Source of the DNA: Liolophura sinensis
Taxonomy: Eukaryota; Mollusca; Polyplacophora; Chitonida; Chitonidae
Length of the DNA stretch: 64,000 nucleotides
Assembly (NCBI RefSeq): GCF_032854445.1
Contig: NC_088300.1
Coordinates: 79,846,101 to 79,910,100, forward strand
Reading direction: 5' to 3'
Part shown: positions 1 to 63,116 of the stretch, in pieces
Numbering within the stretch: the stretch's first letter is position 1
Layout of the letters: every line of letters begins with the position of its first letter
Notes under the pieces: model-generated
What the model was told of the DNA's origin: nothing
Databases searched by the model: none
The model's input: only the letters and a program-made list of their open reading frames with translations
Translations under genes and position numbers: made by a program

Positions 1-2350
1 GCAGTAGGCATGATGCCTTGTGATGGCAGTAGGTATGATGCCATGTGATGGCAGTAGGTATGACGCCATGTGATGGCAGTAGGTATGATGCCATGTGATG
101 GCAGTAGGTATGATGCCTTGTGATGGCAGTAGGGCAGTAGGTATGATGCCTTGTGATGGCAGTAGGTATGATGCCTTGTGATGGCAGTAGGTATGATGCC
201 TTGTGATGGCAGTAGGTATGATGCCATGTGAGGGCAGTAGGTATGATACCTTGTGATGGCAGTAGGTATGATGCCTTGTGATGGCAGTAGGGCAGTATGT
301 ATGATGCCATGTGATGGCAGTAGGCATGATGCCTTGTGATGGCAGTAGGTATGATGCCATGTGATGGCAGTAGGTATGACGCCATGTGATGGCAGTAGGT
401 ATGATGCCATGTGATGGCAGTAGGTATTACGCCTTGTGATGGCAGTAGGCATGATGCCTTGTGATGGCAGTAGGCATGATGCCTTGTGATGGCAGTAGGC
501 ATGATGCCTTGTGATGGCAGTAGGTATGACGCCATGTGATGGCAGCAGGTATGACGCCTTGTGATGGCAGTAGGTATGACGCCTTGTGATGGCAGTAGGT
601 ATGATGCCTTGTGATGGCAGTAGGGCAGTAGGTATGACGCCATGTGTTGGCAGTAGGTATGACGTCATGTGATGGCAGTAGGTATGACGCCATGTGATGG
701 CAGTAGGTATGACGCCTTGTGATGGCAGTAGGTATGACGCCATGTGATGGCAGTAGGTATGACGCCATGTGATGGCAGTAGGTATGACGCCATGTGATGG
801 CAGTAGGTATGATGCCATATGATGGCAGTAGGTATGATGCCATGTGATGGCAGTAGGTATGACGCCATGTGATGGCAGTAGGTATGATGCCATGTGATGG
901 CAGTAGGTATGATGCCTTGTGATGGCAGTAGGTATGATGCCATGTGATGGCAGTAGGTATGATGCCATGTGATGGCAGTAGATGGCAGTAGGTATGATGC
1001 CATGTGATGGCAGTAGGTATGATGCCATGTGATGGTAGTAGGTATGATGCCATGTGATGGCAGTAGGTATGACGCCTTGTGATGGCAGTAGGTATGATGC
1101 CATGTGATGGCAGTAGGTATGACGCCATGTGATGGCAGTAGGTATGATGCCATGTGATGGCAGTAGGTATGATGCCTTGTGATGGCAGTAGGTATGATGC
1201 CATGTGATGGCAGTAGGTATGATGCCATGTGATGGCAGTAGGTATGATGCCTTGTGATGGCAGTAGGTATGATGACTTGTGATGGCAGTAGGTATGATGC
1301 CATGTGATGGCAGTAGGTATGATGCCATGTGATGGCAGTAGGTATGATGCCATGTGATGGCAGTAGGCATGATGCCTTGTGATGGCAGTAGGTATGATAC
1401 CATGTGATGGCAGTAGGTATGATGCCTTGTGATGGCAGTAGGTATGATGCCATGTGATGGCAGTAGGGCAGTAGGTATGATGCCATGTGATGGCAGTAGG
1501 TATGATGCCATGTGATGGCAGTAGGGCAGTAGGTATGATGCCATGTGATGGCAGTAGGTATGACGCCATGTGATGGCAGTAGGTATGACGCCATGTGATG
1601 GCAGTAGGTATGATGCCTTGTGATGGCAGTAGGTATGATTCCTTGTGATGGCAGTAGGGCAGTAGGTATGATGCCTTGTGATGGCAGTAGGCATGATGCC
1701 TTGTGATGGCAGTAGGCATGATGCCATGTGATGGCAGTAGGTATGATGCCTTGTGATGGCAGTAGGTATGATGCCATGTGATGGCAGTAGTGCAGTAGGT
1801 ATGATGCCATGTGATGGCAGTAGGTATGATGCCATGTGATGGCAGTAGGTATGATGCCATTTGATGGCAGTAGGTATGATGCCATTTGATGGCAGTAGGT
1901 ATGATGCCATGTGATGGCAGTAGGTATGATGCCATGTGATGGCAGTAGGGCAGTAGGTATGATGCCTTGTGATGGCAGTAGGCATGATGCCTTGTGATGG
2001 CAGTAGGCATGATGCCATGTGATGGCAGTAGGTATGACGCCATGTGATGGCAGTAGGTATGACGCCTTGTGATGGCAGTAGGTATGATGCCATGTGATGG
2101 CAGTAGGTATGATGCCTTGTGATGGCAGTAGGGCAGTAGGTATGATGCCATGTGATGGCAGTAGGTATGATGCCATATGATGGCAGTAGGTATGACGCCT
2201 TGTGATGGCAGTAGGTATGACGCCATGTGATGGCAGTAGGTATGATGCCTTGTGATGGCAGTAGGTATGATGCCATGTGAGGGCAGTAGGTATGATGCCT
2301 TGTGATGGCAGTAGGTATGATGCCATGTGATGGCAGTAGGTATGATGCAT
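1..2350. repeat. 25-bp minisatellite, about 93 copies, cut by the window edge
   Basis: The unit is close to GGCAGTAGGTATGATGCC plus ATGTGAT, with C/T and A/T variants and occasional shortened copies in which GGCAGTAG is repeated. The array runs off the left edge and breaks up near 2350. Because 25 is not a multiple of three, all three minus frames cycle through the same peptides, which explains two overlapping minus ORFs of about 600 residues. No exon is visible inside. It probably lies in an upstream intron of the catenin gene or 5' of it. Confidence 0.97.
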
Positions 2351-2974
2351 GTACCTTGGGTTGGATGATGAGCTGTGAGGTTAAGTGTTGTTATTACAGC
2401 GCCATGTAGAGGAGGGACACTACGAGCATGTAAGGATCAAGTACATGTATGTGTATTCATGAAATGGCGATATTTGCACCGACTCAGTGACTCAAAAGAT
2501 GCCCAGAGGGAGATCATGACAATAGAGTTGCTGTAAAAGAAGCCATACATGATCAAGATTCACCAAAGAGTTGGAATTGAGGAAATATGTTAAAATGAAC
2601 ATATATACAATTAAACAGTGTAACACAACACCCTAAACAGGTAAACAGGTAAATTGAGCTGCAGTATCGGACATTAATAAGAATAAAATCTTACTGAAGG
2701 TCAAACAATATCGTGAGCATGCATTTACATGACTGATAAGATATAAGTATCAATAATAGCATCAGGCATGTAGCCATAGGATGATGTGACAGTCACAGAT
2801 AATACATCATAAGGTGATATGACTAAGAGATTCGCTCAAAGAAGTCAAATATTTGGGGGGGGGGGGCAGCGTCTTCAACAGAAGCTCCGATATACCTTTC
2901 AAAGCAGGATGAGGACCAACATCCCAGGTGCTTAATCATATGATCTTTAATTCCCATGAACACACACATAGGAG
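2351..2974. other. Non-coding spacer
   Basis: AT-rich unique sequence with no credible exon, splice pair or long ORF. It contains a run of ten or more G near 2857-2867. Confidence 0.6.
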
Positions 2975-2981
2975 CTGCCCC

Positions 2982-3325
2982 TATTGACGTAGTAGCTGCC
3001 CCTGTTCACGTAGTATGTGCCCCTATTCACATAGTAGCTGCCCCTATTCACATAGTAGCTGCTCTATTCACATAGTAGCTGCCCCTATTCAAGTAGTAGC
3101 TGCCCCTTTTCACCTAGTAGCTGCCCCTATTCACATAGTAGCTGCCCCTATTCATGTAGTAGCTGCCCCTATTCACCTAGTAGCTGCCCCTATTCACATA
3201 GTAGCTGCCCCTATTCACGTAGTATCTGCCCCTTTTCACCTAGTAGCTGCCCCTATTCACATAGTAGCTGCCCCTATTCACGTAGTATGTGCCCCTATTC
3301 ACCTAGTAGCTGCCCCTATTCTAAA
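2982..3325. repeat. 21-bp minisatellite, about 16 copies
   Basis: The unit is GTAGCTGCCCCTATTCACAT plus A, with variants at the CACATA/CACGTA/CACCTA positions. The plus-strand ORF through it reads as a seven-residue repeat (VAAPIHI) and is a by-product of the 21-bp period. Confidence 0.95.
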
Positions 3326-3357
3326 GAAATGACCTGAATATTTTGACTGATCATATG

Positions 3358-4236
3358 TTAACAAAGTATTTCTGTAACATAGGACAAAAAGGTTGCGTGT
3401 GTCGACTGCCTGCTGCTATTTACAATAAACAAAGGTTCCTTAGCAGAAACTCCAGATTTTTTCCTCGTTAGGTATCTTTCCAAAAATGTGCAAGTTTGCA
3501 ATTTGGAACGAGATAAAGCATCAGCCAGAATCTTATGTTTCCTGGCACATGTGAAGTCGATTTGCAAAAATTGTTTATAGCATGTGAGTTTGCATATTAA
3601 TTTCATCACCATTGGGGGTGGAGACCGAACCATCCTATTGATGCGCACAACAGGCACATTATCACAGTTAAACCAAATGCGCTTAGACTTCCAGCTGCAA
3701 CCCAAAAGTACACAAGCCACAACAATGGGTACGACTCCAGCAGGGTAAAAGAGAGTGAATTGACCTGCATCTCCTGGGGCCATGGCCCGTGAAACCACAG
3801 GCATCTGTAAAATCCACTGAAACCAAGCCCTAAAGCGTCTGTAAATAGCTCGAGGTCTGCTGCATCAGTAATTTTATTTTCCCAAAACAATGAAATTACA
3901 TTCCCATTCTGTAGGAATTTAAACCACATTTGCAGGTCCAAGCGGCAGTCGTGACAAATGGTGACCCTGTGATGAAGCTCTTTCATAGAGACACTTCAGA
4001 AATTGTTCTTTTGGTGCATGTCCGTTGGAACGTGATAGTATTAATTAGCTCCACAGGACGAACCACCTTCTCGCATAGCTTCTGTATCAAGAGTGATGTC
4101 AAGATATTCCAGCTCTGTCACTCTGTCCTAATGTTTTCTTTTGGGAGAGGGGAATGGCGAGTTTGTTAAACAGTACCGACAGGAGAGCCATGGTCCTCTT
4201 AGCACACACATCACTGCTAGCTATCACTGCTTAAGA
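3358..4236 (-). mobile_element. Degenerate DIRS-like retroelement: end of reverse transcriptase and RNase H
   Basis: Read on the minus strand, broken frames carry, in order, an RT-like segment near 4060-4200 (IPLSQKKT, then LEYLDITLDTEAM), an RNase H-like start (LELFTDA, about 3850), a second RNase H block (CDNVPVVRIN, about 3640) and a terminal ILADALSR (about 3510). This order and these residues resemble the RT/RNase H of DIRS-type (tyrosine-recombinase) retrotransposons. The frames shift at least twice and there are internal stops, so it is dead. The family assignment is from memory of motifs; another RT/RNase H element is possible. Confidence 0.7.
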
Positions 4237-5300
4237 ACTCATCGAAAAGATGTAACAAATGTTTTATACTGTAGTTGTTTTGTACAATCCAGTAAATTGC
4301 CTCAGATAACATGTCAAATAATTTGGAACCAGAGCGTGATCCAAATACAAGAGGCTGGTAGAAGTAGTATTGAGAACTCCATTTGATTCCATGCAAACAT
4401 AGAAATTTGACTTACTTCGGTTGGTGTCATTGGTGATTGATAAGCAAAATTTGACAAGTGGTCTAAAGCTTGACAAAAGCCACCGCGCTTTGATGCCTGT
4501 GAACAGCCTTGTGAAGAGTGCATTGTCCCTTGTAGCCCTGTTGATCCTTTTATTGAAATTGTCTAGAACTGCTGCTGATCTTGCTGAGAAAGCTTTATGT
4601 TATGTGCAGAAAGTGGTCCCTCCAAACTGACTAGATCATTTAAGATCTGGACGAGCGATGTGGTTCACGATCTGGTCCGGCTTGAGGTTATTGGAATTGG
4701 ATGACAGTCCAATAACCCTGCCATGAAAACCAGCATCATCTCGAGGGAAGAGTAGACTTGCAAGGCTTATGTCCTTACCTGCAATATAATTTGTCTCTCT
4801 TAACATGGCAGGGATGGTACGTCTTGAGACGCATAACCCATGTCTCTCAATGAACCGGCTGCAGACGAAGGTGGAATTGATGCGGCACGCAGCATGAAGG
4901 GTGAATTTCCACAGTTGTTTGTGTTTGTCGTAGGATTTGAATGGTGGACATTGAGAGGCCTGTAGACGTAGTAGAACCATGTAGGGATGAGACACCGGCA
5001 CGGTATTTGCCTACATTGTGGACTGAAATTGCCCTAGCAGAAGCAGTGTTACTGTCGTGAGCCTGTTGAATATTCATGGTCGGGGGATACTGCGGCTGCA
5101 TCAGGCGAAGTTCGCCTATTGATGTTTGCAGAAATTTCTGATGGAACAGAAATATTAATGTCCTGGAGCTTGCATTTAAGCTCTGTGGTGGACCAGTTCT
5201 GTGGCAGATTGTTATCTGGCTGGTGCTGGCATTGCTAGTATTACCACCAGTAGTCATGAAAATGCAGAAGGCGGACTGGTAGGATAGAAACACCAGTATT
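4237..5300 (-). pseudogene. Possible upstream remains of the same retroelement
   Basis: Several short minus-strand ORFs lie in a row (about 4264-4523, 4636-5001, 4847-5293), in the orientation expected for sequence 5' of the RT remnant. None has a motif I recognise and the frames overlap and break. Treated as decayed element or unique spacer. Confidence 0.3.
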
Positions 5301-5375: not shown

Positions 5376-5744
5376 GTGAGTGAGTGAGTGAGTGCTTGGG
5401 GTTTAACGTCGTACTCAACAATTTTTCAGTCATATGACGACGAAGGAATCATTAGGGTGCCTTTACGTGTAATGTGCCTCCATGTTGCAGGACGGATTTC
5501 CACCGCTCTTTTATTTAGTGCTGCTTCACTGAGATGACTTACCGAAGGCAAGTAAGCCGCCCCGCCCAAGCCATTATACTGATACGGGTCAACCAGTCGT
5601 TGCACTATCCCCTTCATGCTGAACGCCAAGCGAGGAAGTTACAACTTTCTCTTTTAAAGTCTTAGGTGTGACTCGATCAAGGATTGATCCTGGATCTACC
5701 GGTCCCGAAGCAGATGCTGTACCAGCTATGCTAATCGGGCCGGT
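5376..5744 (-). mobile_element. tRNA-derived SINE (family 2), intact with target-site duplications
   Basis: The element starts with a GTGA microsatellite tail (GAGTGAGTGAGTGAGTGC) and ends in a tRNA-like part whose reverse complement includes an A-box-like stretch and CGGTAGATCC. It is flanked by a perfect 12-bp direct repeat GTGACCAGTTGA at 5364-5375 and 5745-5756. A second, opposite-oriented copy is at 13668-14029. ORFs within it are not genes. Confidence 0.9.
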
Positions 5745-5756
5745 GTGACCAGTTGA

Positions 5757-6261
5757 TGCTTGACATGTAAGATTGGATGAGGTTGTAGAAACTTGATGGT
5801 GAAGCAACAAGATGGTGGCATCCACACTGAAGCATGAATCAGGACTGATGACATATAGCTGCTACGTAACATGACACATACAGTATGATGCCATCGGAAG
5901 ACATGCTGTTTTTGTGGCATTAACTCTGAGCACAAGAAGTGACGACTTTTGGATTAAGAATTACTGTGGAGCATGCTACAGTCTTACTCTACAGCATAAG
6001 CACATTGCTTACTGAATTCACATTATTTTGGATTCACATGATCCAATCCATCTCGTATTCAAGTATTTGGTGTTGACATGAAAATGTGGGTACCACAGAA
6101 CCGTATGTCTGGTCAGTACTTCCTTACCCAGCTCAGCACAGTGCTCTTCTATATACCATAGTACTGTTGACAAAGGCTAATTATGTAAAGTAAAAGATAC
6201 AAATCAAGATGGATTACTAGTGTGTTTCATGGGACACCTGATGTCTGGTTGTATTGTACAG
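5757..6261. other. Intron upstream of the first visible catenin exon
   Basis: Unique sequence without a recognised exon. It ends in the acceptor TATTGTACAG at 6252-6261. Confidence 0.6.
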
Positions 6262-22129: not shown

Positions 22130-25100
22130 ACACCATACCATGGAGTAGCTTTACTCATGGTACTGACCAAAGTGTAGTGAGCACCATGTAGACATGGAGT
22201 AGCTTTACTCATGGTACTGACCAAAGTGTAGTGAGCAACATATAGACATGGAGTAGGTTTACTCATGGTACTGACCAAAGTGTAGTGAACAACATGTAGA
22301 CATGGAGTGGGTTTACTCATTGTACTGACCAAAGTGTAGTGAGCATCATGTAGACATGGAGTGGGTTCACTCAAGGTACAGGCTAAAGTGTAGTGAGCAC
22401 CATGTAGACATGGAGTGGGTTTACTCATCGTACTGACCAAAGTGTAGTAAGCACCATGTAGACATGGGGTGGGTTTACTCAAGGTACAGGCCAAAGTGTA
22501 GTGAGCACCATGTAGACATGGAGTGGGTTTACTCATGGTACTGACCAAAGTGTAGTGAGCACCATGTAGACATGGAGTAGGTTTACTCATGGTACTGACC
22601 AAAGTGTAGTGAGCACCATGTAGTCATGGAGTGGGTTTGCTCAAGGTACAGGCCAAAGTGTAGTGAACAGCATATAGACATGGAGTAGATTTACTCATGG
22701 TACTGACCAAAGTGTACTGAACAACATACAGACATGGAGTAGGTTTACTCATGGTACTGACCAAAGTGTAGTGAACAACATGTAGACATGGAGTGGGTTT
22801 ACTCATGGCACTGACCAAAGTGTAGTGAACAACATATAGACATCTAGTGGGTTTACTCATCGTACTGACCAAAGTGTAGTGAGCATCATGTAGACATGGA
22901 GTGGGTTTACTCAAGGTACAGGCTAAAGTGTAGTGAGCACCATGTGGACATGGAGTGGGTTTACTCATCGTACTGACCAAAGTGTAGTGAGCACCATGCA
23001 GACATGGAGTGGGTTTACTCATGGCACTGACCAAAGTGTAGTGAGCACCATGTAGACATGGAGTGGGTTTACTCATGGTACTGACAGCGAACAACATGTA
23101 GATATGGAGTGTGTTCATTCATGGTACTGACCAAAGTGTAGTGAGCGCCATGTAGACATGGAGTAGGTTCACTCAAGGTACAGACCAAAGTGTAGTGAGC
23201 ACCATGTAGACATGGAGTGGGTTCACTCAAGGTACAGGCCAAAGTGTAGTGAACAACATATAGACATGGAGTAGGTTTACTCATGGTACTGACCAAAGTG
23301 TAGTGAACAACGTATAGACATGGAGTAGGTTTACTCATCGTACTGACCAAAGTGTAGTGAGCATCATGTAGACATGGAGTGAGTTCATTCATGGCACTGA
23401 CCAAAGTGTAGTGAGCACCATGTAGACATGGAGTGGGTTTACTCATGGTACTGACCAAAGTGTAGTGAACAACATGTAGACATGGAGTAGGTTTACTCAT
23501 GGCACTGACCAAAGTGTAGTGAACAACATGTAGACATGGAGTGGGTTTACTCATGGCACTGACCAAAGTGTAGTGAACAACATATAGACATCTAGTGGGT
23601 TTACTCATCGTACTGACCAAAGTGTAGTGAGCATCATGTAGACATGGAGTGGGTTTACTCAAGGTACAGGCTAAAGTGTAGTGAGCACCATGTGGACATG
23701 GAGTGGGTTTACTCATCGTACTGACCAAAGTGTAGTGAGCACCATGCAGACATGGAGTGGGTTTACTCATGGCACTGACCAAAGTGTAGTGAGCACCATG
23801 TAGACATGGAGTGGGTTTACTCATGGTACTGACAGCGAACAACATGTAGATATGGAGTGTGTTCATTCATGGTACTGACCAAAGTGTAGTGAGCGCCATG
23901 TAGACATGGAGTAGGTTCACTCAAGGTACAGACCAAAGTGTAGTGAGCACCATGTAGACATGGAGTGGGTTCACTCAAGGTACAGGCCAAAGTGTAGTGA
24001 ACAACATATAGACATGGAGTAGGTTTACTCATGGTACTGACCAAAGTGTAGTGAACAACGTATAGACATGGAGTAGGTTTACTCATCGTACTGACCAAAG
24101 TGTAGTGAGCATCATGTAGACATGGAGTGAGTTCACTCAAGGTACAGGCCAAAGTGTCGTGAGCACCATGTAGACATGGAGTGGGTTCATTCATGGCACT
24201 GACCAAAGTGTAGTGAGCACCATGTAGACATGGAGTGGGTTTACTCATGGTACTGACCAAAGTGTAGTGAACAACATGTAGACATGGAGTAGGTTTACTC
24301 ATGGCACTGACCAAAGTGTAGTGAACAACATGTAGACATGGAGTGGGTTTACTCATGGCACTGACCAAAGTGTAGTGAACAACATATAGACATCGAGTGG
24401 GTTTACTCATCGTACTGACCAAAGTGTAGTGAGCATCATGTAGACATGGAGTGGGTTCACTCAAGGTACAGGCTAAAGTGTAGTGAGCACCATGTAGACA
24501 TGGAGTGGGTTTACTCATCGTACTGACCAAAGTGTAGTGAGCACCATGCAGACATGGAGTGGGTTTACTCATGGCACTGACCAAAGTGTAGTGAGCACCA
24601 TGTAGACATGGAGTGGGTTTACTCATGGTACTGACAGCGAACAACATGTAGATATGGAGTGTGTTCATTCATGGTACTGACCAAAGTGTAGTGAGCGCCA
24701 TGTAGACATGGAGTGGGTTCACTCAAGGTACAGACCAAAGTGTAGTGAGCACCATGTAGACATGGAGTGGGTTTACTCATGGTACTGACCAAAGTGTAGT
24801 GAACAACATTTAGACATGGAGTGGGTTTACTCATGGTACTGACCAAAGTGTAGTGAGCACCATGTAGACATGGAGTGGGTTTACTCATTGTACTAACCAA
24901 AGTGTAGTGAGCATCATGTAGACATGGATTGGGTTCACTCAAGGTACAGGCCAATGTGTAGTGAGCACCATGTAGACATGGAGTAGGTTCATTCATGGTA
25001 CTGACCAAAGTGTAGTGAGCACCATACAGACATGGAGTGGGTTCATTCATGGTACTGACCAAAGTGTAGTGAGCAACATGTAGACATGGAGTGGGTTCAT

Positions 25101-26875
25101 TCATGGTACTGACCAAAGTGTAGTGAGCAACAACAAGTAGACATGGAGTGGGTTTACTCATGGTACTGACCAAAGTGTGGTGAACAACATGTAGACATGG
25201 AGTGGGTTTACTCATGGTACTGACCAAAGTGTAGTGAGCACCATGTGGACATGGAGTGGGTTCATCCATGGTACTGACCAAAGTGTAGTGAACAACATGT
25301 AGACATGGAGTAGGTTTACTCATGGTACTGACCAAAGTGTAGTGAACAACATGTAGACATGGAGTGGGTTTACTCATGGTACTGACCAAGGTGTAGTGAG
25401 CACCATGTGGACATGGAGTGGGTTTACTCATGGTACTGACAGTGAATAACATTTAGATATGGAGTGGGTTCATTTATGGTACTGACCAAAGTGTAATCAG
25501 CACCATGTAGACATAGAGTGAGTTCACTCAAGGTACACACCAAAGTGTAGTGAGCATCATGTAGACATGGAATGGGTTTACTCATCGTACTGACCAAAGT
25601 GTAGTGAGCATCATGTAGACATGGAGTAGGTTTACTCATGGTACTGACCAAAGTGTAGTGAGCACCATGTAGACATGGAATGGGTTTACTCATGGTACTG
25701 ACAGCGAGCAACATGTAGATATGGAGTGGGTTCATTCACGGTACTGACCAAAGTGTAGTGAGCGCCATGTAGACATGGAGTGGGGTCACTCAAGGTACAG
25801 ACCAAAGTGTAGTGAGCACCATGTAGACATGGAGTGGGTTTACTCATCGTACTGACCAAAGTGTAGTCAGCACCATGTAGACATGGAGTGGGTTTACTCA
25901 TGGTACTGACAGCGAATAACATGTAGATGTGGAGTGGGTTCATTTACGGTACTGACCAAAGTGTAGTCAGCACCATGTAGACATGGAGTGAGTTCACTCA
26001 AGGTACAGACCAAAGTGTAGTCAGCACCATGTAGACATGGAGTGGGTTTACTCATCGTACTGACCAAAGTGTAGTGAGCGCCATGTAGACATGGAGTGGG
26101 TTCACTCATGGTACTGACAGTGAACAACATGTAGATATGGAGTGGGTTCATTTACGGTACTGACTAAAGTGTAGTGAGCGCCATGTAGACATGGAGTGAG
26201 TTCACTCAAGGTACAGGCCAAAGTGTAGTGAGCACCATGTAGAGATGGAGTGGGTTTACTCATGGTACTGACCAAAGTGTAGTGAACAACATTTAGACAT
26301 GGAGTGGGTTTACTCATGGTACTGACCAAAGTGTAGTGAGCACCATGTAGACATGGAGTGGGTTTACTCATTGTACTAACTAAAGTGTAGTGAGCATCAT
26401 GTAGACATGGATTGGGTTCACTCAAGGTACAGGCCAATGTGTAGTGAGCACCATGTAGACATGGAGTGGGTTCATTCATGGTACTGACCAAAGTGTAGTG
26501 AGCACCATACAGACATGGAGTGGGTTCATTCATGGTACTGACCAAAGTGTAGTGAGCAACATGTAGACATGGAGTGGGTTCATTCATGGTACTGACCAAA
26601 GTGTAGTGAGCAACAACATGTAGACATGGAGTGGGTTTACTCATGGTACTGACCAAAGTGTAGTGAACAACATGTAGACATGGAGTGGGTTTACTCATGG
26701 TACTGACCAAAGTGTAGTGAGCACCATGTGGACATGGAGTGGGTTCATTCATGGTACTGACCAAAGTGTAGTGAACAACATGTAGACATGGAGTGGGTTC
26801 ACTCAAGGTACAGGTCAAAGTGTAGTGAGCAACAACATGTAGACATGGAGTGGGTTTACTCGTCGTGCGGGTCAA
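22130..26875. repeat. 54-bp satellite-like array of about 88 copies with higher-order structure
   Basis: The unit runs TACTGACCAAAGTGTAGTGA, GCACCATGTAGACATGGAGT, GGGTTTACTCATGG. A truncated monomer lacking CCAAAGTGTAGT recurs near 23085, 23835, 24635, 25440, 25710, 25910 and 26120, marking higher-order blocks of about 750-800 bp and then 208 bp. Whole blocks (22624-23118 and 23372-23866; about 24700-25440 and 26160-26870) are nearly identical. Minus ORFs of 85-283 residues (CLHGAHYTLVSTMSKPTP) come from the 54-bp period. Confidence 0.97.
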
Positions 26876-27429: not shown

Positions 27430-27800
27430 AGGGTCGGCTACGACGGTGTGTCAGGAGAGTAGCCTTACACCGGTCGACGACAGACGGCAACTCACAGGAG
27501 AGTAACGCTACAACTGGCGACGACAGAAAGCAACTCACAGGAGAGTAGGCCTACACCTGGCGACGACAGGAGGCAACTCACAGGAGAATAACCCTAAACC
27601 TGGCGACGACAGATGGCAACTTACAGGAAAGTAGCCCTTCTCCTGACGACGACAGACGCCAACTCACAGGAGAGTAGCCCTACACCTGGCGACGACAGAC
27701 GGCAACTCACCGGAGAGTAGCCTTACGCCTGGTGACGACAGAAGGTAACTCACAGGAGAGTAGCCATACACCTGGCGACGACAGACGGCAACTCACCAAC
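27430..27800. repeat. 43-bp minisatellite, about eight copies
   Basis: The unit includes GGAGAGTAGCCCTACACCTG and GCGACGACAGACGGCAACTC, GC-richer than its surroundings. Confidence 0.93.
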
Positions 27801-42841: not shown

Positions 42842-42924
42842 ATGGTCTCCATCCAGATACAGAGGCGCTTGTTCCTGCTGCCTATCGTCAGTTTCATTTT
42901 CCTGCTGGCCTCTGTGTTCACCAC
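42842..42924 (+). CDS. DRAM-like: DRAM-like exon 1: start and first membrane helix
   Basis: 83 coding bases ending CACCAC|GTGAGT. It encodes MVSIQIQRRLFLLPIVSF and a hydrophobic run (IFLLASVFT) that fits the first transmembrane helix. An alternative in-frame ATG is at 42806. Confidence 0.85.
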
Positions 42925-45900
42925 GTGAGTAGATGCGCTTCAGAGCCACGCATACATGACTGATAACTCAAACAGAAAACAGAGTAAAACTGGTAAAATA
43001 ATAACTCAGACAGAACGCAATTAGACTAATGCAACAGGTAGAACAAAAGGTAAAGATATTAATGATGTAGGGAATACAATCAAACTGAAACAGAAACATT
43101 TCTGCAGAGATAGGGCGGGATATAGAATAAGTAAATTCTGTACAAAAAATTATGAATTTTACTTTTCACGTTTAAAATGTTCTTGATAAGACAATATATC
43201 TATAAAATTGTTATTTGTAGCCATAAGTGATCTGACAGGAGTATTTCTTCCAGCTAGTTGTGTGTGTGTGTCCGTCAAAAACATCAGTTGATCTTAGTCG
43301 CTGAAGAGGACAGTTAAAACGGATTTGTACGACAAGAGACTCATCGTTGACCATTGACTGGACACAAATGACCTCCATTAAACAATACATCCAATCAAAT
43401 AGGGTTTATCTTTATCCCAATCATCTGCCATCCTCTCATCAGTGTTGGAGGGGTTTCCATTTTCACGTAAGCTTCAGTTGATATTACTATAATTTATTTA
43501 TTTCCATATAACCGTAAAATGTTAGCTTTACATTGTCAATGTCTATAGGTATGGCGTGGCTGCTGGACTGGGGCATGTGAACCCGGGATTTCCTTACATA
43601 AGGTAAGATGTTATAGTCTTATATACTATATTGCTCAGAAAGCCTCATTACATTTACTAGTTCGCGAATCCAACTCTCACTTTTTGTCAAGTCAGAAGAT
43701 TTGCGAAAGGCTGTCATTTTATCAGGGATATGTGTGATGTCTTCATTTCATGTCTGTCACAAGCCCTGTCGCCTCACACAAGCCTCCCGACCTCTTGCAA
43801 GCCTTCTTCCCTCTAACAAACCTTCCCGCCTGCCACAAACATTCCCGCCAGCCACAAATCTTTCCGCCTCTAACAAATTTTCCCGCCTCTAACAAACCTT
43901 CCCGCCTGCCACAAACCTTCCCGTCTACCACAAACTTTCCCTTCTGCGTAAGTATGGTACTCTGCTCAATCTATTTTAAAGAATAGGCGTCGACTTAGTC
44001 TTTATAAATAGTAGAATTCTTTAATAATAATGAAGCATCACCAGTTTAAATAAATTAATATATTATGTATCCTTAATACATTAGCATGATGTGATTTCTA
44101 AACATAGTTTTTGTATTTGTTAAGCATGCATCTGAAGTGCGAACATATGGCGGAGACACTATTCGAGATGGTCAGTTATTGTCAGCAGTAGTTTCTGTTG
44201 TAATTTCACAGTTACACGGGTCTCAAAGTTCCTGAGCGTGGAATCTTCGGTCAGCTGCTCAATATGGGTGCCATTCTGCGTAAGTATGATACTCTGGTCA
44301 ATATGGGTGCCATTCTGCGTAAGTATGATACTCTGCTCAAGATGGGTGCCATTCTGCGTGAGTATGATAATCTGCTCAGTATGGGTGCCATTCTGCGTAA
44401 GTATGATACACTGCTCAGTATAGGTGCCATTCTGGGTAAGTATGATAATCTGCTCAATATAGGTGCCATTCTGTGTAAGTATGATGATCTGCTTAATATA
44501 GGTGCCATTCTGCGTAATTATGGTACGCTGCTCAGTGTAGGTACCATTCTGTGTAAGTATGATAATCTGCTCAATATAGGTGCCATTCTGCATAATTATG
44601 GTACGCTGCTCAGTGTAGGTGCCATTCTGGGTAAGTATGATACACTGCTCAATATAGGTGCCATTCTGCGTAAGTATGATAATCTGCTCAATATAGGTGC
44701 CATTCTGTGTAAGTATGATAATCTGCTCAATATAGGTGCCATTGTGCGTAATTATGGTACGCTGCTCAATGTAGGTGCCATTCTACGTAAGTATGATAAT
44801 CTGCTCAGTATGGGTGCCAATCTGCGTAAGCATGATACTCTGCTCAGTATGGATGCCATTGTGGGTAAGTATGGTACTCTGCTGAGTATGGGTGCCGTTC
44901 TGAGTGCCATTCTGCGTAAGTATGGTACTCTGCTCTCTATAGGTGCCATTCTGCGTAAGCATGATACTCTGCTCAGTATGGATGCCATTCTGGGTAAGTA
45001 TGATACTCTGCTCAGTATGGAGGCCATTCTGCGTAAGCATGATACTCTGCTCAATATAGGTGCCATTCTGGGTAAGTGTGATACTCTGCTCAGTATGGAT
45101 GCCATTCTGGGTAAGTATGATACTCTGCTCAGTATGGATGCCATTCTGGGTAAGTGTGATACTGTGCTCAATATAGGTGCCATTCTGGGTAAGTGTGATA
45201 CTCTGCTCAGTATGGATGCCATTCTGGGTAAGTATGATACTCTGCTCAGTATGGATGCCATTCTGAGTGCCATTCTGCGTAAGTATGGTACTCTGCTCTC
45301 TATAGGTGCCATTCTGCGTAAGCATGATACTCTGCTCAGTATGGATGCCATTCTGAGTGCCATTCTGGGTAAGTATGATACTCTGATCACTATAGGTGCC
45401 ATTCTGCGTAAGCATGATACTCTGCTCAATATAGGTGCCATTCTGGGTAAGTATGGTACTCTGCTCGGTATGGGTGCCATTCTGTGTAAGTATGGTACTC
45501 TACTGAACATCTGTGCTATTCTGGGCGTTATCCTGCGCAGGTACTGTACTCTAGCTGAAATGTGCTCTTGTCACTTAGATTTGTGGTCCTAGTCCGCATT
45601 TGATTATAGCAACCCATTTTTGTTGTTATTGAATTGCTTATATATGAGGAAATGTACCCTGTTCTGATTAGTGGAGTACATATATGACATCCACAAGAAC
45701 TTTGATTATGTATCATGTATAATATATTAATTGTTATCTAGGTTTGAATTGAAGGATAAAGATAAATATTTAAACATTGTGTTAAGAATGCGCATGCGCA
45801 TTACTACCGTGTGTGTGTATGGATTTACGAATTTGGTTGCAGCTGATGCTAAAAACAAGCTGATGCTTGTAAAACAGGTTTACATCACTAACACTGTTTC

Positions 45901-48900
45901 ATCTGATCACAGAAAAGGTTTATATAGATTCATGAAGCGTTTTTTTCGTTTTCAGTTGCCCTCAATGTGTGTGCGCGGTACCTCCGGGTGAAGGTGTACA
46001 ACACAGACGTGAGCTGCTTAAACAAAACCTGCCTCGTTCTCGGCTTGCTCTCCGCATTCGGCCAGACCATGGTGGCGAACTTCGAGGTAGGGCATCGTCT
46101 TGCGGAATTTCATTTTTCATCCGTTGAAACTATGGGCACAGTTGTTTTACTCCGATCAATTGTAATATCTGATGGTTCAACCGATTAATATGGGGATTTT
46201 GTTAATAACTACTATTCGATATTCCACGCACGGTGCCTTCAACTTTTGCTTTGCAAAATATTAAACACTTTGAGTGGTGTGACTTGAACGGACATAATTG
46301 CACAGCTGATCCAGCTATCTAAATTCGTTGTTACGTTTGGTTCCGGCATCAATATAACTTAACTATAGCTGTCGGCCTGTATTATACCGATTCCTGTCAT
46401 TGGGGATTGTGGCCAGTGGCGATATATGTCAGATGATTCAGGGGAGAAGAGGGACGGAACAGACAGGCGTAGTGATACTGCATTACCCCTGTGTGTGTGT
46501 GTGTTGTGGGAGGGGGGGGGGGCTGTTTTCATCTTCTCCAGGATACAAACCGTGCAGTCCTTATATTATTATCCTGTGTTATTTACAGACAGTAGTGATG
46601 CGCGGACCGCACTACGTGGGGGCTGCCCTAGGTTTTGGGGTGGGGGGCATCTACTGTTGGATACAGACCGTCCTATCCTGGAGACTTCGCCACGAGTCTC
46701 GGATCACACGACACCTGGTTTTCTGGTCACAACTGCTCATCAGCGTCCTCATCTCGGTGTTTGCCATCACCTGTATCCTTTGCCTTCCGTTTAACCTAGA
46801 TGTATAGAGATGCTCAGTTCCACCATTATGAAAGCTCGGGTAATTGTGAAATGTTGTACGACCCCACCACCCAATCGACATTACAGATGCAATGCTCAGC
46901 CATAAAGGCTATTCCAGGTCAGTTCTCTCATGAAGAGCTGTCAGAAGCGCTGCTTATTCCAGACTTATACCTCACAGAGAAACCACTGAACCTCACAGCC
47001 TTCACTCCAAGTTTAGTATTTCCACACTGAGAAAAATAAACGAGTTATAAGTTAGTCACGTAACTAACTGGAATTAGTCACACATAAATTATTCATGTAA
47101 TTCATGAATAATTAGTCAAAGTAATTTATTATTCATGTAAATTAGTCAAATGACTCACTTGTCATACCCTCACATGACGCATGTATCGGTGTTTCACAAG
47201 TTAGCTAGTGTAGCGGACGTCGTAAATTATTGAGTACAAACTCAAAAATAAAAAGAAAATCATAGGATCCTGTAAATTCTTTTTTAGAGGCGCACTTTTA
47301 AAGGTGGGCCTTTCCTAGTAGCAAATGTGTATTCTAAACGTGAATGGCGCCAGAGTTAAGGTTTCCATTTCACCTGACCACCATTTCATTATTTCTTTTC
47401 CTTGATTATGCAAACAGTTTCCGTTTCCAAAATTATTTTCAAAGGTTATAAAAATGATGAGGCGAAGAATGAAGAGGTACGTACATTAGAAATGCCTAGT
47501 CTAGTGGACTTAGATTATGTCTGAAACATTGCATGTGTGAGAAGTGTAGTTGTATGGTCGAACTTTCTCCAAGTTATGTGCTGATACCCCTTCAGTTCAT
47601 AGTCTGTAAAATTTGAGGTCGTTTTTGCAAATTTTGCGTAAATGTCATAAATTTCATTGGTACTTGGTGAGATACCGTTGTCGGTAGTCAGGCAGAATAC
47701 ATGGGAGTTACAAACAAATGCAAGAGTGGAAATACCAGGCCCAAGGGTCACGAAGCAGTCTGGTTCTTAGGCCAGACTTTCATAACAATTTACCTGGCTA
47801 AAATTATAAGTTACTTTAACAGAATTGATTTGATACTAAAACTTGTCTTGTACTTTCCTGACCAAACAGAAAATCAGCCTATAAATTTAAGTTCAGGCAT
47901 AATGCCACAAGTTACGACGAAGTGTGACTTCAGACTATGACAAGTTCGTAATCCTATGGCCAGATATTTGATTTGGTATTCTTGTTGCACAGGGCCCCGT
48001 GCGGACCGCATACCTGACATCCACAGTCGCAGAGTGGTTACTAGCCATCTCCATCATGTTCTTCCTCCTGACCTACGTCCCCGAGTTCAGAAACGTCACT
48101 GTCAAACCGCCTTGTGTGGAGTGCGACTCGGTAAGGCCGGAACAGAACGGGGGCCAGTAACGTCATTCTAAAACTCAAGTAAAAAAAAAAAAAAACAACC
48201 TTTACGGACTTCGTAATACTGTGGTTGTCCGATTTACATCCATATAGAACGCCGTGAACAGGGTGACTAAATTCGGATATAAGGCAGCGTTATTATTTAG
48301 AGATATCAGAAAAATCATGACAGTATTAATTAGCTACATAGTAGAGAATTGCATTCCAGAATTCTTGTAGTATTCTTGTTGATTCTTTCACCCGTAGTAT
48401 GTGAACCGCCGAGGTCTTTTGGCGAAAACCCATTAAGTATTTATATTATTATTATACGTTAGAATGTTTGAGGTATGTAACAGGTAGCTCTTGTCTTTTC
48501 CATATTCCAATTGTGTGAATGTAATGGTGTTGCTACATGCATGCTTGCTAGTTTATTTCTTCCGCTCCTTGTCCAAAGTTGTGTGTGTTTCTAACTAGAT
48601 AAGTGAATGACACTGCCTGGTGCTCTGTATGGATTGGTCCCGTAGTGGGCGGGGCAAGGAGAGGACGTCCTCTGAAAACAAGTCATGTATATGGCTGCCG
48701 AAATAACAGAGCCGGTCTACGTCAACAAAAACTTTCTGGATAATGGTTCCCGCGGGGTTTTAATGAAACCTGTTATAATGACGGTGGATGCCAGTTCCAC
48801 AAAGCTTTATAAGGATTACCTAGGTTTTGACCAGTTTGACCCCCATCTATGTGGAGGACGTGTCCTCAGATGCTGACAAACAGAATACGGAGAGTATTCA

Positions 48901-60182: not shown

Positions 60183-63116
60183 CTGGGGTAAGACAGAGGA
60201 GACAAGTCAGTTATACTGCATAGAACATGGGGGAGGGGAGACCCACCCACCAGCCTGGGATGTGACAAGCACAGTAGTTTGGGATATGACAAGCACAATA
60301 GCTTGGGATGTGACAAACACATGAGTTTGGGATGTGACAAGCACCATAACATGGGATGTGAGAAGTACACTAGTTTGGAATATGACAAGCACACTAGCTT
60401 GGGATGTGACAAATGCAGTATTTAGGGATGTGACAAGCACACTAGCTTGGGATGTGACAAGCACAGTGGTTTGGAATGTGACAAGCACCCTAACATGGGA
60501 TGTGAGAAGCACACGAGTTTGGAATATGACAAGCACACTAGCTTGGGATGTGACAAATGCAGTAGTTAGGGATGTAACAAGCACGCTAGCTTGGGATGTG
60601 ACAAGCACAGTAGTTTGGGATGCGACAAGTGCAGTAGTTTGGGATGTGACAAACACAATAGCTTGGAATGTGACAAGCACAGTAGTTTGGGATGTTACAG
60701 GCACACTAGCTTGGGATGTGACAAGCACAGTAGTTTGGAATATGACAAGTACACTAGCTTGGGATGTGACAAATGCAGTAGTTAGGGATGTGACAAGCAC
60801 ACTAGTTTGGGATGTGACAAGCACAGTAGTTTGGGATGCGACAATAGCAGTAGTTTGGGATGTGACAAGAGCGGTAGTTTGGGATGTTATGAGCACACTA
60901 GCTTGGAATGTGACAAACACAGTAGTTTGGGATGTGAGAAGCACAGTGGTTTGGGATGTGACAAGCACCCTAACATGGGATGTGAGAAGTACACTAGTTT
61001 GGAATATGACAAGTACACTAGCTTGGGATGTGACAAATGCAGTAGTTAGGGATGTGACAAGCACACTAGCTTGGGACGTGACAAGCACAGTAGTTTGGGA
61101 TGCGACAATAGCAGTAGTTTGGGATGTGACAAGAGCAGTAGTTTGGGATGTTATGAGCACACTAGCTTGGAATGTGACAAGCACAGTAGTTTGGGATGTT
61201 ACAGGCACACTAGCTTGGGATGTGACAAGCACAGTAGTTTGGGATGTGACAAGTGCACTAGTTTGGGATGTGACAAGTGCAGTAGTTTGGGATGTTATAA
61301 GCACACTAACTTGGGATGTGAGAAGCAAAGTAGTCTGGGATGTTACAAGCGCACTAGCTTGGGATGTGAGAATCACACTAGTTTGGAATGTGACAAACAC
61401 ACTAAGCTGAGCAGTGAAAAAAACACAACTTGTCCCTCCATAACTTTGTACACAGCCCCATCTACTGGTTGTGATGATAACAAGCCAACTGGCTCCAGTG
61501 ATCTCTTCACAAATCCAGCAAAGGGGCATTAAACACCAATCATACATTTACAATTTCTGGACATGAAAAAACTTTTCTTCAAAATTAATATGATGTCAAT
61601 TAGTATCATGTGTAGGTAATTATAAAGTGCCATATCTTGGGTACTGCAGGTAAACTCTGATTGTTGTATAATGCCATACTCACCTGAAGCAATTTCTCAT
61701 TTAATGCCATACTCACCTGAAGCAAATTTCTCATTTAATGCCATACTCACCTGAAACAATTTCTCATTTAATGCCATACTCACCTGAAGCAATTTCTCAT
61801 TTAGTGCCATACTCACCTGAAGCAATTTCTCATTTAATGCCATACTCACCTGAAGCAATTTACCACTTAATGCCACACTCACCTGAAGCAATTCACCATT
61901 TAATGCCATACTCAAAACAATTTATCATTTATGCAGGTAACTAACGTACCCAAAGAAAACCACAAATTTTCAACCAGTTACAGTGGTGAATGTTTCTATT
62001 TGTGACATCTGTCCACATCCATATTTTGTAGATTTACTGAGATTTTGTAACCAATGTGTTTACTGACCTGGTTAAGTTTAGGAATGTTCAGGAACTCAGC
62101 TTTAGAATCTGACCTCTGTAACAGCAGCTCTGACCTCTTGAAACTGCCCATGGAGTGACCACTGGCCAAAAGGCTCTCTACATGAACAGGTCAAATATAC
62201 ACAAGGATCAGCATAGTAGGATCTGAACAAAAACAATCTTACCTTCGGCACATTTCACTTTGTCGCTTAAAACCAAACTTAAAAAATTAGCTGAACTTGA
62301 AAGAAACATAAAACTACAGCAGCAATGTAATATGGTAAATATATATGCATTTTGAAAATATAGCCCCTTCCTGTACTCTGAAGTTACTTACAAAACAAGC
62401 ATGCAAGATTTATTTCCCCTTGCACTCATTCTTCACATCATTTGATTCATTTACTTATTTATTTATTTGATTGGTGTTTTATGGCATACTCAAGAATATT
62501 TCAGTTATACGATGGTGGCCAGCATTAATGTGGGAGAAAAGGGGCAGAGCCCGCGGGAATCTTCACATCATGAAATGATATATAACAAAGATATAAAACA
62601 AATACAATGTACACAAACGAGCAAAGGTGTAAGATTTATATCCCTTTGCACTCATTCTTCACATCATGAAATGATATATAACAAAGATATAAAACAAATA
62701 CAATGTACACAAACGAGCAAACGTGTAAGATTTATATCCCTTTGCACTCATTCTTCGCATCATGAAATGATATATAACAAAGATATAAAACAAATACAAT
62801 GTACACAAACGAGCAAACGTGTAAGATTTATATCCCTTTGCACTCATTCTTCATACTATGGTCATACAACTAATACACTAACCTTGTAAGGAGTCAGAAG
62901 GAGTGCCTGGGCTTGTTGTGTCTACACTGAGAGTCAACTCAGATTCCAAGCTGACACTCCCTACTAACTCTTGGGCACTATCTGCCACATTGTTGGTCAA
63001 CTCAGGTGCACTCTGCTCTGTGCTTAGTTCCAGGGTTTTGGGGGGTGAGGAGGCTGGTCCATTCCCTTCTGTGGGGGGAATAGGTGGGGATATACCTGTA
63101 CTAGGAAGTTCCAGGT
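59544..63116 (-). CDS. TBC1D9-like: TBC1D8/TBC1D9-family Rab GTPase-activating protein, C-terminal 326 residues (last three exons)
   Basis: Minus-strand exons are 63116-62883, 62177-62068 and 60182-59544, with matching phases. The first is a Ser/Pro/Thr-rich linker. The second ends IPKLNQ and joins EQFIQLWKTLYNLF in the third, followed by EEQQLYHSIATVGMLLQEIG, which closely resembles the region after the TBC and EF-hand parts of TBC1D9. An acidic low-complexity stretch follows, then DWSVTFEQYLASML and VRFFEK, the conserved tail of the family. These proteins have GRAM and TBC domains and act as GAPs for Rab GTPases; those domains lie beyond the right edge. Both introns carry tandem arrays. Confidence 0.85.
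60235..61410. repeat. 24-bp minisatellite in the last TBC intron, about 49 copies
   Basis: The unit is near GTTTGGGATGTGACAAGCAC plus AGTA. Block duplication of about 260 bp is visible (around 60560-60800, 60760-61040 and 61030-61240). Both strands carry long open frames (446 and 358 residues), which are period artefacts. Confidence 0.95.
61411..61670 (-). other. Unique part of the last TBC intron
   Basis: Contains a short family-1-tail-like string (AAACACCAATCATAC at 61531-61545) and no exon. Confidence 0.5.
61675..61935 (-). repeat. 33-bp array with seven fused acceptor/donor-like sites on the gene strand
   Basis: On the minus strand each unit is GTGAGTATGGCATTAAATGA then GAAATTGCTTCAG. 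Each boundary therefore reads TTGCTTCAG|GTGAGTATGG. Seven of eight copies keep the CAG|GTGAGT core; the copy at the 61900 end has lost it. Confidence 0.93.
61936..62067 (-). other. Start of the last TBC intron
   Basis: Sequence directly following the exon donor CCAG|GTCAGT (minus strand). It also holds GTTAGTTACCTGCATAAATG near the array edge. No exon. Confidence 0.5.
62068..62177 (-). CDS. TBC1D9-like: TBC1D9-like penultimate exon
   Basis: 110 bases; the preceding G plus AG completes Glu. It encodes SLLASGHSMGSFKRSELLL and FLNIPKLNQ. Acceptor TTCATGTAG, donor AACCAG|GTCAGT. Confidence 0.85.
62395..62855. repeat. 96-bp tandem array, about 3.5 copies, interrupted by a SINE
   Basis: The unit includes ATGAAATGATATATAACAAA, GATATAAAACAAATACAATG and TATCCCTTTGCACTCATTCT. 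A partial unit lies left of the SINE at 62442. Three nearly identical copies follow from 62561. Confidence 0.93.
62442..62560 (-). mobile_element. SINE family 1, truncated, inserted in the 96-bp array
   Basis: TTATTTATTTGATTGGTGTT through GGGCAGAGCCCGCGGGAA; the tRNA-like head is absent. Flanked by CTTCACATCAT at 62431-62441 and 62561-62571, which is also the array's own sequence, so the repeat marks the insertion point. Confidence 0.88.
62883..63116 (-). CDS. TBC1D9-like: TBC1D9-like exon: Ser/Pro-rich linker
   Basis: 234 bases with two incoming and one outgoing base; 77 whole codons (LELPSTGISPPIPPTEGNG to SDSLQ). Acceptor AACTTTGCAG, donor TTACAAG|GTTAGT. Low-complexity, so the call rests on splice sites, phase and position. 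Confidence 0.8.

Follow-up and report, generated by a model that had tools for sequence, protein, structure and literature searches.

Minisatellites that span an exon-intron boundary have been described in amphioxus, where such 'mirage' minisatellites are reported in Adh3 and in the globin genes BflGb6 and BflGb9 (PMC3087553, PMC3902484), with troponin C and PGBD5 also named as cases (PMC3902484). These arrays are unstable in length, somatically so at Adh3, and the Adh3 data and globin RT-PCR suggest that they leave splicing undisturbed (PMC3087553, PMC3902484); the authors of the globin study saw a potential for the repeats to act as cryptic sites (PMC3087553). A second precedent is human IFI6 (6-16, G1P3), whose minisatellite supplies more than one splice donor (Turri et al., 1995, cited in PMC4526556); two of the downstream repeat units function as donors there, and three mRNA species are reported (PMC4526556). 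The minisatellites of earthworm metallothionein were also considered and set aside, as they are described as lying inside an intron, with no mention of repeats that cross the limit of an exon. Our literature search did not find a chiton or mollusc case of an exon-boundary minisatellite.

The array described here belongs to the chiton Liolophura sinensis and lies at 44255-45523 on the plus strand of the window, by which we mean the whole 64,000-base stretch of DNA that was analysed. It has two of the features by which the amphioxus mirages are recognised, namely a boundary-spanning unit, confirmed by comparison with two paralogues, and a splice signal in many of the repeats; in the amphioxus genes, the repeats likewise span the exon-intron boundary and repeat splice signals. 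The hosts there are cephalochordates, whereas the host here is a mollusc. The BflGb6 haplotypes are given as having six and three units at an acceptor, compared to 31 copies in the chiton, and BflGb9 as having a duplicate at a donor-side boundary. Unlike the amphioxus repeats, the chiton unit has a length that is in phase, so that each donor would join in frame. The IFI6 repeat unit, of 12 bp, is also in frame. The chiton array thus resembles IFI6 in being a minisatellite at an exon end with in-frame donors in successive units, but downstream repeat donors are used in the IFI6 mRNA, whereas those of the chiton are predicted from sequence. The chiton array is unusual in its number of in-frame donors and ordinary in its genome background.

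The array-bearing gene is DRAM2-like, as judged from its translated exons. The product of exons 1-5 matched the Pfam family PF10277 (Frag1/DRAM/Sfk1) with an E-value of 2.2e-30 and a score of 106.3 bits (cut-off, 30.3). DRAM is described as an autophagy-related membrane protein. A search covering ∼5.8 billion proteins, of which 2573 candidates were scored, returned a single match at E ≤ 1e-3: a 265-aa protein (P0001) with 100% identity over 99% of the query, titled 'DNA damage-regulated autophagy modulator protein 2-like [Liolophura sinensis]'. All exons lie on the plus strand. The coding part of exon 1 occupies 83 nt (42842-42924, donor at 42925) and exon 2 a further 54 nt (43549-43602, donor at 43603). 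Exon 3 is 68 nt long (44212-44279), and the final 25 nt of it (44255-44279) also form the exonic portion of the first array unit. It is followed by the first donor, C|GTAAGTATG, at 44280-44288, and by intron 3 (44280-45955), which measures 1676 nt and consists of array for about three quarters of its length. Exon 4 (45956-46086, 131 nt) follows the acceptor TTTTCAG and has its donor at 46087. When joined through the first donor, exons 1-4 translate to the start of P0001. For exons 5 (46589-46772), 6 (47418-47476) and 7 (47993-48130), the limits come from comparison with P0001 by eye; the exons located do not include the last coding one. The genome used comprises 609.46 Mb in 632 contigs, and the published chiton assembly is given as ∼609 Mb (PMC11068029), under the species name L. 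japonica, which has since been corrected (PMC12441733). The scaffold C6 has 82,489,547 bases here, versus 82,493,220 for the contig bearing P0001, and the two may come from slightly different assembly versions.

TRF reported the array as having a period of 39, 31.6 copies and 81% matches. A unit is made up of 25 bases from the end of exon 3 followed by 14 bases of intron 3. Dividing the array in the donor register yields 31 units whose donor positions run from 44280 to 45486, and beyond it lies a degenerate 3' edge (45524-45592, plus strand) that contains a decayed unit 32, with GCAGGT at 45537, and ends in an in-frame TAG (45590-45592). GTRAG is found in 28 of the 31 units and GTRAGT in 23. 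The three that lack GTRAG are units 7 and 13, which have GTAATT, and unit 9, which has ATAATT and therefore, with AT in place of GT, no donor. The base at −1 is C in 16 units, G in 11 and T in four, so that the codon joined to exon 4 is CTT, GTT or TTT; when exons 1-4 were translated using each of the 31 donor positions in turn, the junction residue was L, V or F in every case and none of the translations met a stop. Successive donors add 13 residues, apart from three steps of 17, which correspond to 12-bp inserts in units 17, 26 and 28. All three inserts are in one register and so probably represent one event. The first-pass annotation of this DNA had described the unit as the end of exon 3 together with its donor, with the same counts of units, GTRAG and GTRAGT, a joined codon that is always hydrophobic and increments of 13 residues plus four where an insert occurs; the counts proved exact and the rest was confirmed.

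It had also noted that the frame of exon 3 remains open to 45590, which is correct as a description, the frame running up to the TAG. As evidence, this openness carries little information because the period is 39, the inserts share one register and random variants would leave the frame free of stops with a probability of 0.41-0.61. We rejected it as an indication of coding, given that 10 of the 26 other arrays in the window also have at least one stop-free frame. Eight Pfam hits of the array open reading frame were likewise dismissed as low-complexity noise, each falling below its curated cut-off.

The array was found at one locus. When the end of the exon together with the first unit served as query in a DNA search of one haploid assembly, with very common words skipped, there were 29 matches, all inside the array, and no copies outside it. 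The motif TATAGG occurs 13 times within 44280-45592; the units therefore offer AG sites too, and might form cryptic exons of ∼12 nt.

Comparison within the family identifies the first donor as the ancestral one. A Pfam family search of the chiton's own genome gave six exon matches, none of them to exons of the window itself. We compared two DRAM-type paralogues on the same scaffold, L008 (C6, 52.05 Mb) and L009 (C6, 54.87 Mb). In both, exon 3 is also 68 nt long and its phase-1 donor lies at the homologous codon, the exon ends reading ...CTA G|GTAGGT and ...CTA G|GTGAGT, versus ...CTG C|GTAAGT in the array gene, and TRF found no array across the exon 3 donor of either. Intron 3 of L008 does have repeats (1580-5132 and 5445-5762), in the form of a 37-bp array of ∼97 copies and a perfect 158-bp tandem duplication near the donor. 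The other three family matches (C8, 52.10-52.14 Mb) are more distant and were left out of the donor comparison; P0001 matched none of them at E ≤ 5. In two of these, L003 and L004, the profile range 35-120 is read through in one open frame, so intron 3 is probably absent from them. Outside the chiton, a search with P0001 that scored 7999 candidates had a sole other match at E ≤ 0.01, a 264-aa protein of the sea slug Plakobranchus ocellatus (P0002; 44% identity to P0001), and the two align without a gap from YTGLKVPERGIFGQLLNMGAIL to LALNVCARYL, spanning the junction. The family is thus without an array at this donor in two paralogues and without an insert in the sea-slug relative. The ends of exon 3 in the paralogues and the gap-free sea-slug alignment indicate that the 44279|44280 junction is ancestral within the DRAM type and that the array grew from this junction into the intron. 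The exon end itself (44255-44279) differs from the array consensus at only 2 of 25 bases, and the −1 base of the first donor is C whereas both paralogues have G. These observations suggest a possible exchange of bases between the coding end and the intron copies.

Arrays of this general kind are abundant in the genome. With a TRF score of at least 100, a period of 10-120 and at least four copies as criteria, the window contains 27 arrays covering 23,853 of its 64,000 bases (37.3%), the largest being at 22139-26861 (54 bp, 88 copies); a separate repeat search showed only another, larger array than the one described here. A genome sample of 20 random 10-kb stretches from two scaffolds contained 30 arrays, which were present in 11 of the stretches and covered 29,484 of 200,000 bases (14.7%). 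Extrapolation from these 30 arrays gives a rough figure of ∼91,000 arrays genome-wide. If that many arose blindly, roughly 0.7% of donors would be expected to lie inside a founder unit, which makes a single boundary array unsurprising.

Donor-bearing arrays were considered as a special feature of this genome, but this was rejected since they showed no enrichment over permuted hexamers or over the reversed pattern. Across the window and the sample, a density of 0.3 GTRAGT per unit or higher, counted on a single strand, is reached by 6 of 57 arrays. Two of the 57 are rich in GTAAGT, compared to a mean of 1.97 (sd 1.59) over the 90 permutations of this hexamer, 47 of which, GTAAGT itself included, reach two arrays. 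Over the whole genome, a pattern of three GTAAGT spaced by 30-60 bases has 10,423 matches (5611 + 4812) against 20,740 (9539 + 11201) for the reversed pattern, a comparison with one control in which matches overlap, with many per array. Within the window, a second donor-bearing array on the minus strand (61669-61914) has a 33-bp unit with CAG|GTGAGT and 0.94 GTRAGT per unit; by eye, it appears to be intronic, in a gene on the minus strand, and not derived from an exon end. A 43-bp array at 27452-27796, also on the minus strand, carries one GTRAGT per unit.

One suggestion is that the array is a device maintained by selection, either because it acts as a U1 sink or because it provides a tunable range of isoforms. 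The retention of GTRAGT in 23 of 31 units would agree with this, but several results speak against it, the missing enrichment of GTAAGT arrays being one. For the constraint tests, units were aligned after the three 12-bp inserts had been removed. The donor columns (+1 to +6) were not significantly more conserved than the rest, with a mean minor count of 1.67 vs 2.85 elsewhere (permutation p = 0.35) and similar outcomes for entropy (p = 0.35) and number of alleles (p = 0.48); columns +1 to +5 were nominally less variable, with p of 0.21-0.41. The comparison of synonymous and non-synonymous change between units, which the first-pass annotation had put forward as a check, gave 24 replacement, 6 silent and no stop variants among 30 distinct variants. 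As 21.3, 7.9 and 0.8, respectively, are expected under equal rates, and 20.3, 9.4 and 0.4 when transitions are favoured, replacement variants are not depleted. Minor counts were lowest at third codon positions (2.15 vs 2.62 and 3.23), the opposite of what coding constraint would produce, but in number of distinct alleles second positions were lowest (second 0.62, third 0.69, first 1.0), so that the codon positions give a mixed picture. We therefore detected no constraint on either the donors or the peptide, in tests that have low power because the 31 units are related by duplication. On the variant counts and the donor-column test, a selected ladder of isoforms was rejected as the main reading, the use of the first donor in P0001 also telling against it, and a maintained device of either sort appears very improbable.

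Donor strength raises a different question. Donors were scored with a generic matrix and by pairing with the U1 end. By the matrix, 22 of 31 units (the first included) at least equal the first donor, which scores just 4.1, versus 7.5-11.0 for the donors of exons 1, 2 and 4. By U1 pairing, 19 of 31 do so (again including the first), with −12.2 kcal/mol for the 11 units that have G at −1 and −7.6 for the first donor. Most array donors are thus predicted to be competent, and the better U1 pairing of these 11 units is the strongest point against exclusive use of the first donor. Where duplicated 5' splice sites are of equal strength, the intron-proximal one is preferred. Both donor strength and this preference would favour array donors. 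If U1 were to bind along the array and the last strong donors were to win, nine of the 11 TGG|GTAAGT units falling within units 16-31, the main protein would be longer by hundreds of residues. However, the first donor is the one used in the public model, the insert would reach 402 residues in a 265-aa protein, the variants appear unconstrained, and an array-bearing protein was not found when the array open reading frame was searched against the 8000 candidates sharing most words with it. We regard this outcome as highly unlikely.

The public model, the conserved length of the family and the amphioxus precedent stand for use of the first donor. P0001 is identical to the first-donor product over exons 1-4, although homology, and not RNA, may be the basis of its gene model; it is the one member of its cluster and bears an NCBI name without an isoform suffix. 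Three protein searches returned no insert-bearing isoforms within their respective reach. The search that returned P0001 would reveal lengths to ∼304 aa (0-3 inserts). Among the candidates that had most words in common with it, the search with P0001 as query would reveal lengths to ∼463 aa (0-15 inserts). The search with the array open reading frame missed P0001 too, and so says little on isoforms with few units.

The first-pass annotation had placed the variable insert within a transmembrane helix. This did not hold: each unit encodes, before its donor, a version of LLNMGAIL and thereby re-supplies a version of the helix start, so that the insert falls before transmembrane helix 2 rather than inside it. 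When the best 19-residue hydropathy window across the junction is taken for each donor, the first has a value of 1.76 and the remaining 30 have values of 1.02-2.20, and a charged residue (D, E or K) enters the rebuilt helix start in 9 of the 31 joins, counted by eye. Insertion would thus make the segment ahead of helix 2 longer and leave the helix unbroken, which should make the isoforms of a ladder less harmful than an insert within the helix.

These features bear on a further possibility, that the first donor is dominant and several array donors are also used, as in IFI6, giving a minor ladder of isoforms that is tolerated and not selected. Every join is in frame, most joins rebuild a hydrophobic helix 2, and the matrix and U1 scores place the majority of units at or above the first donor; downstream repeat units act as donors in human IFI6 (PMC4526556). 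Against this, no insert isoform was present among the public proteins found in searches limited by length and by candidates. Replacement variants are not depleted, but a tolerated ladder would need no such depletion. We consider this possibility unlikely on balance, while noting that the ladder put forward in the first-pass annotation survives to the extent that every join is in frame and most donors look competent; as a selected or functional ladder, it does not. It is rather improbable that array donors are used to an appreciable degree. If they were, the gene would make a ladder of DRAM-like proteins with 0-30 copies of a 13-residue repeat (approximately LLxxGAILRKYDT) before helix 2, the range would vary with the array length of the individual, and most rungs would keep a usable helix.

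The reading we favour, with a probability of about 0.68, is that the array is neutral, a mirage-type minisatellite at an exon boundary, and that splicing mostly takes it out as part of the intron. A short duplication would have captured the end of the DRAM exon 3 (25 bases) and the start of intron 3 (14 bases), and would then have grown to ∼31 copies, presumably via unequal exchange or slippage, in an array-rich genome. Most transcripts would be spliced from 44279|44280, with the array leaving in the intron, and the array donors would be at most minor, unselected alternatives, each adding 13 residues before helix 2.

An exon-boundary minisatellite of the amphioxus kind is now seen in a mollusc. 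It illustrates that the end of an exon can itself belong to a repeat array as one of its units, in which case coding bases might be exchanged with the copies in the intron. The 23 in-frame GTRAGT sites, spaced 39 nt or a few such steps apart, also constitute a natural experiment on donor choice: the ancestral donor comes first, yet by U1 pairing it is weaker than 11 later units, and preference for the first-transcribed, the strongest or the acceptor-nearest donor would make differing predictions, with differing product sizes.
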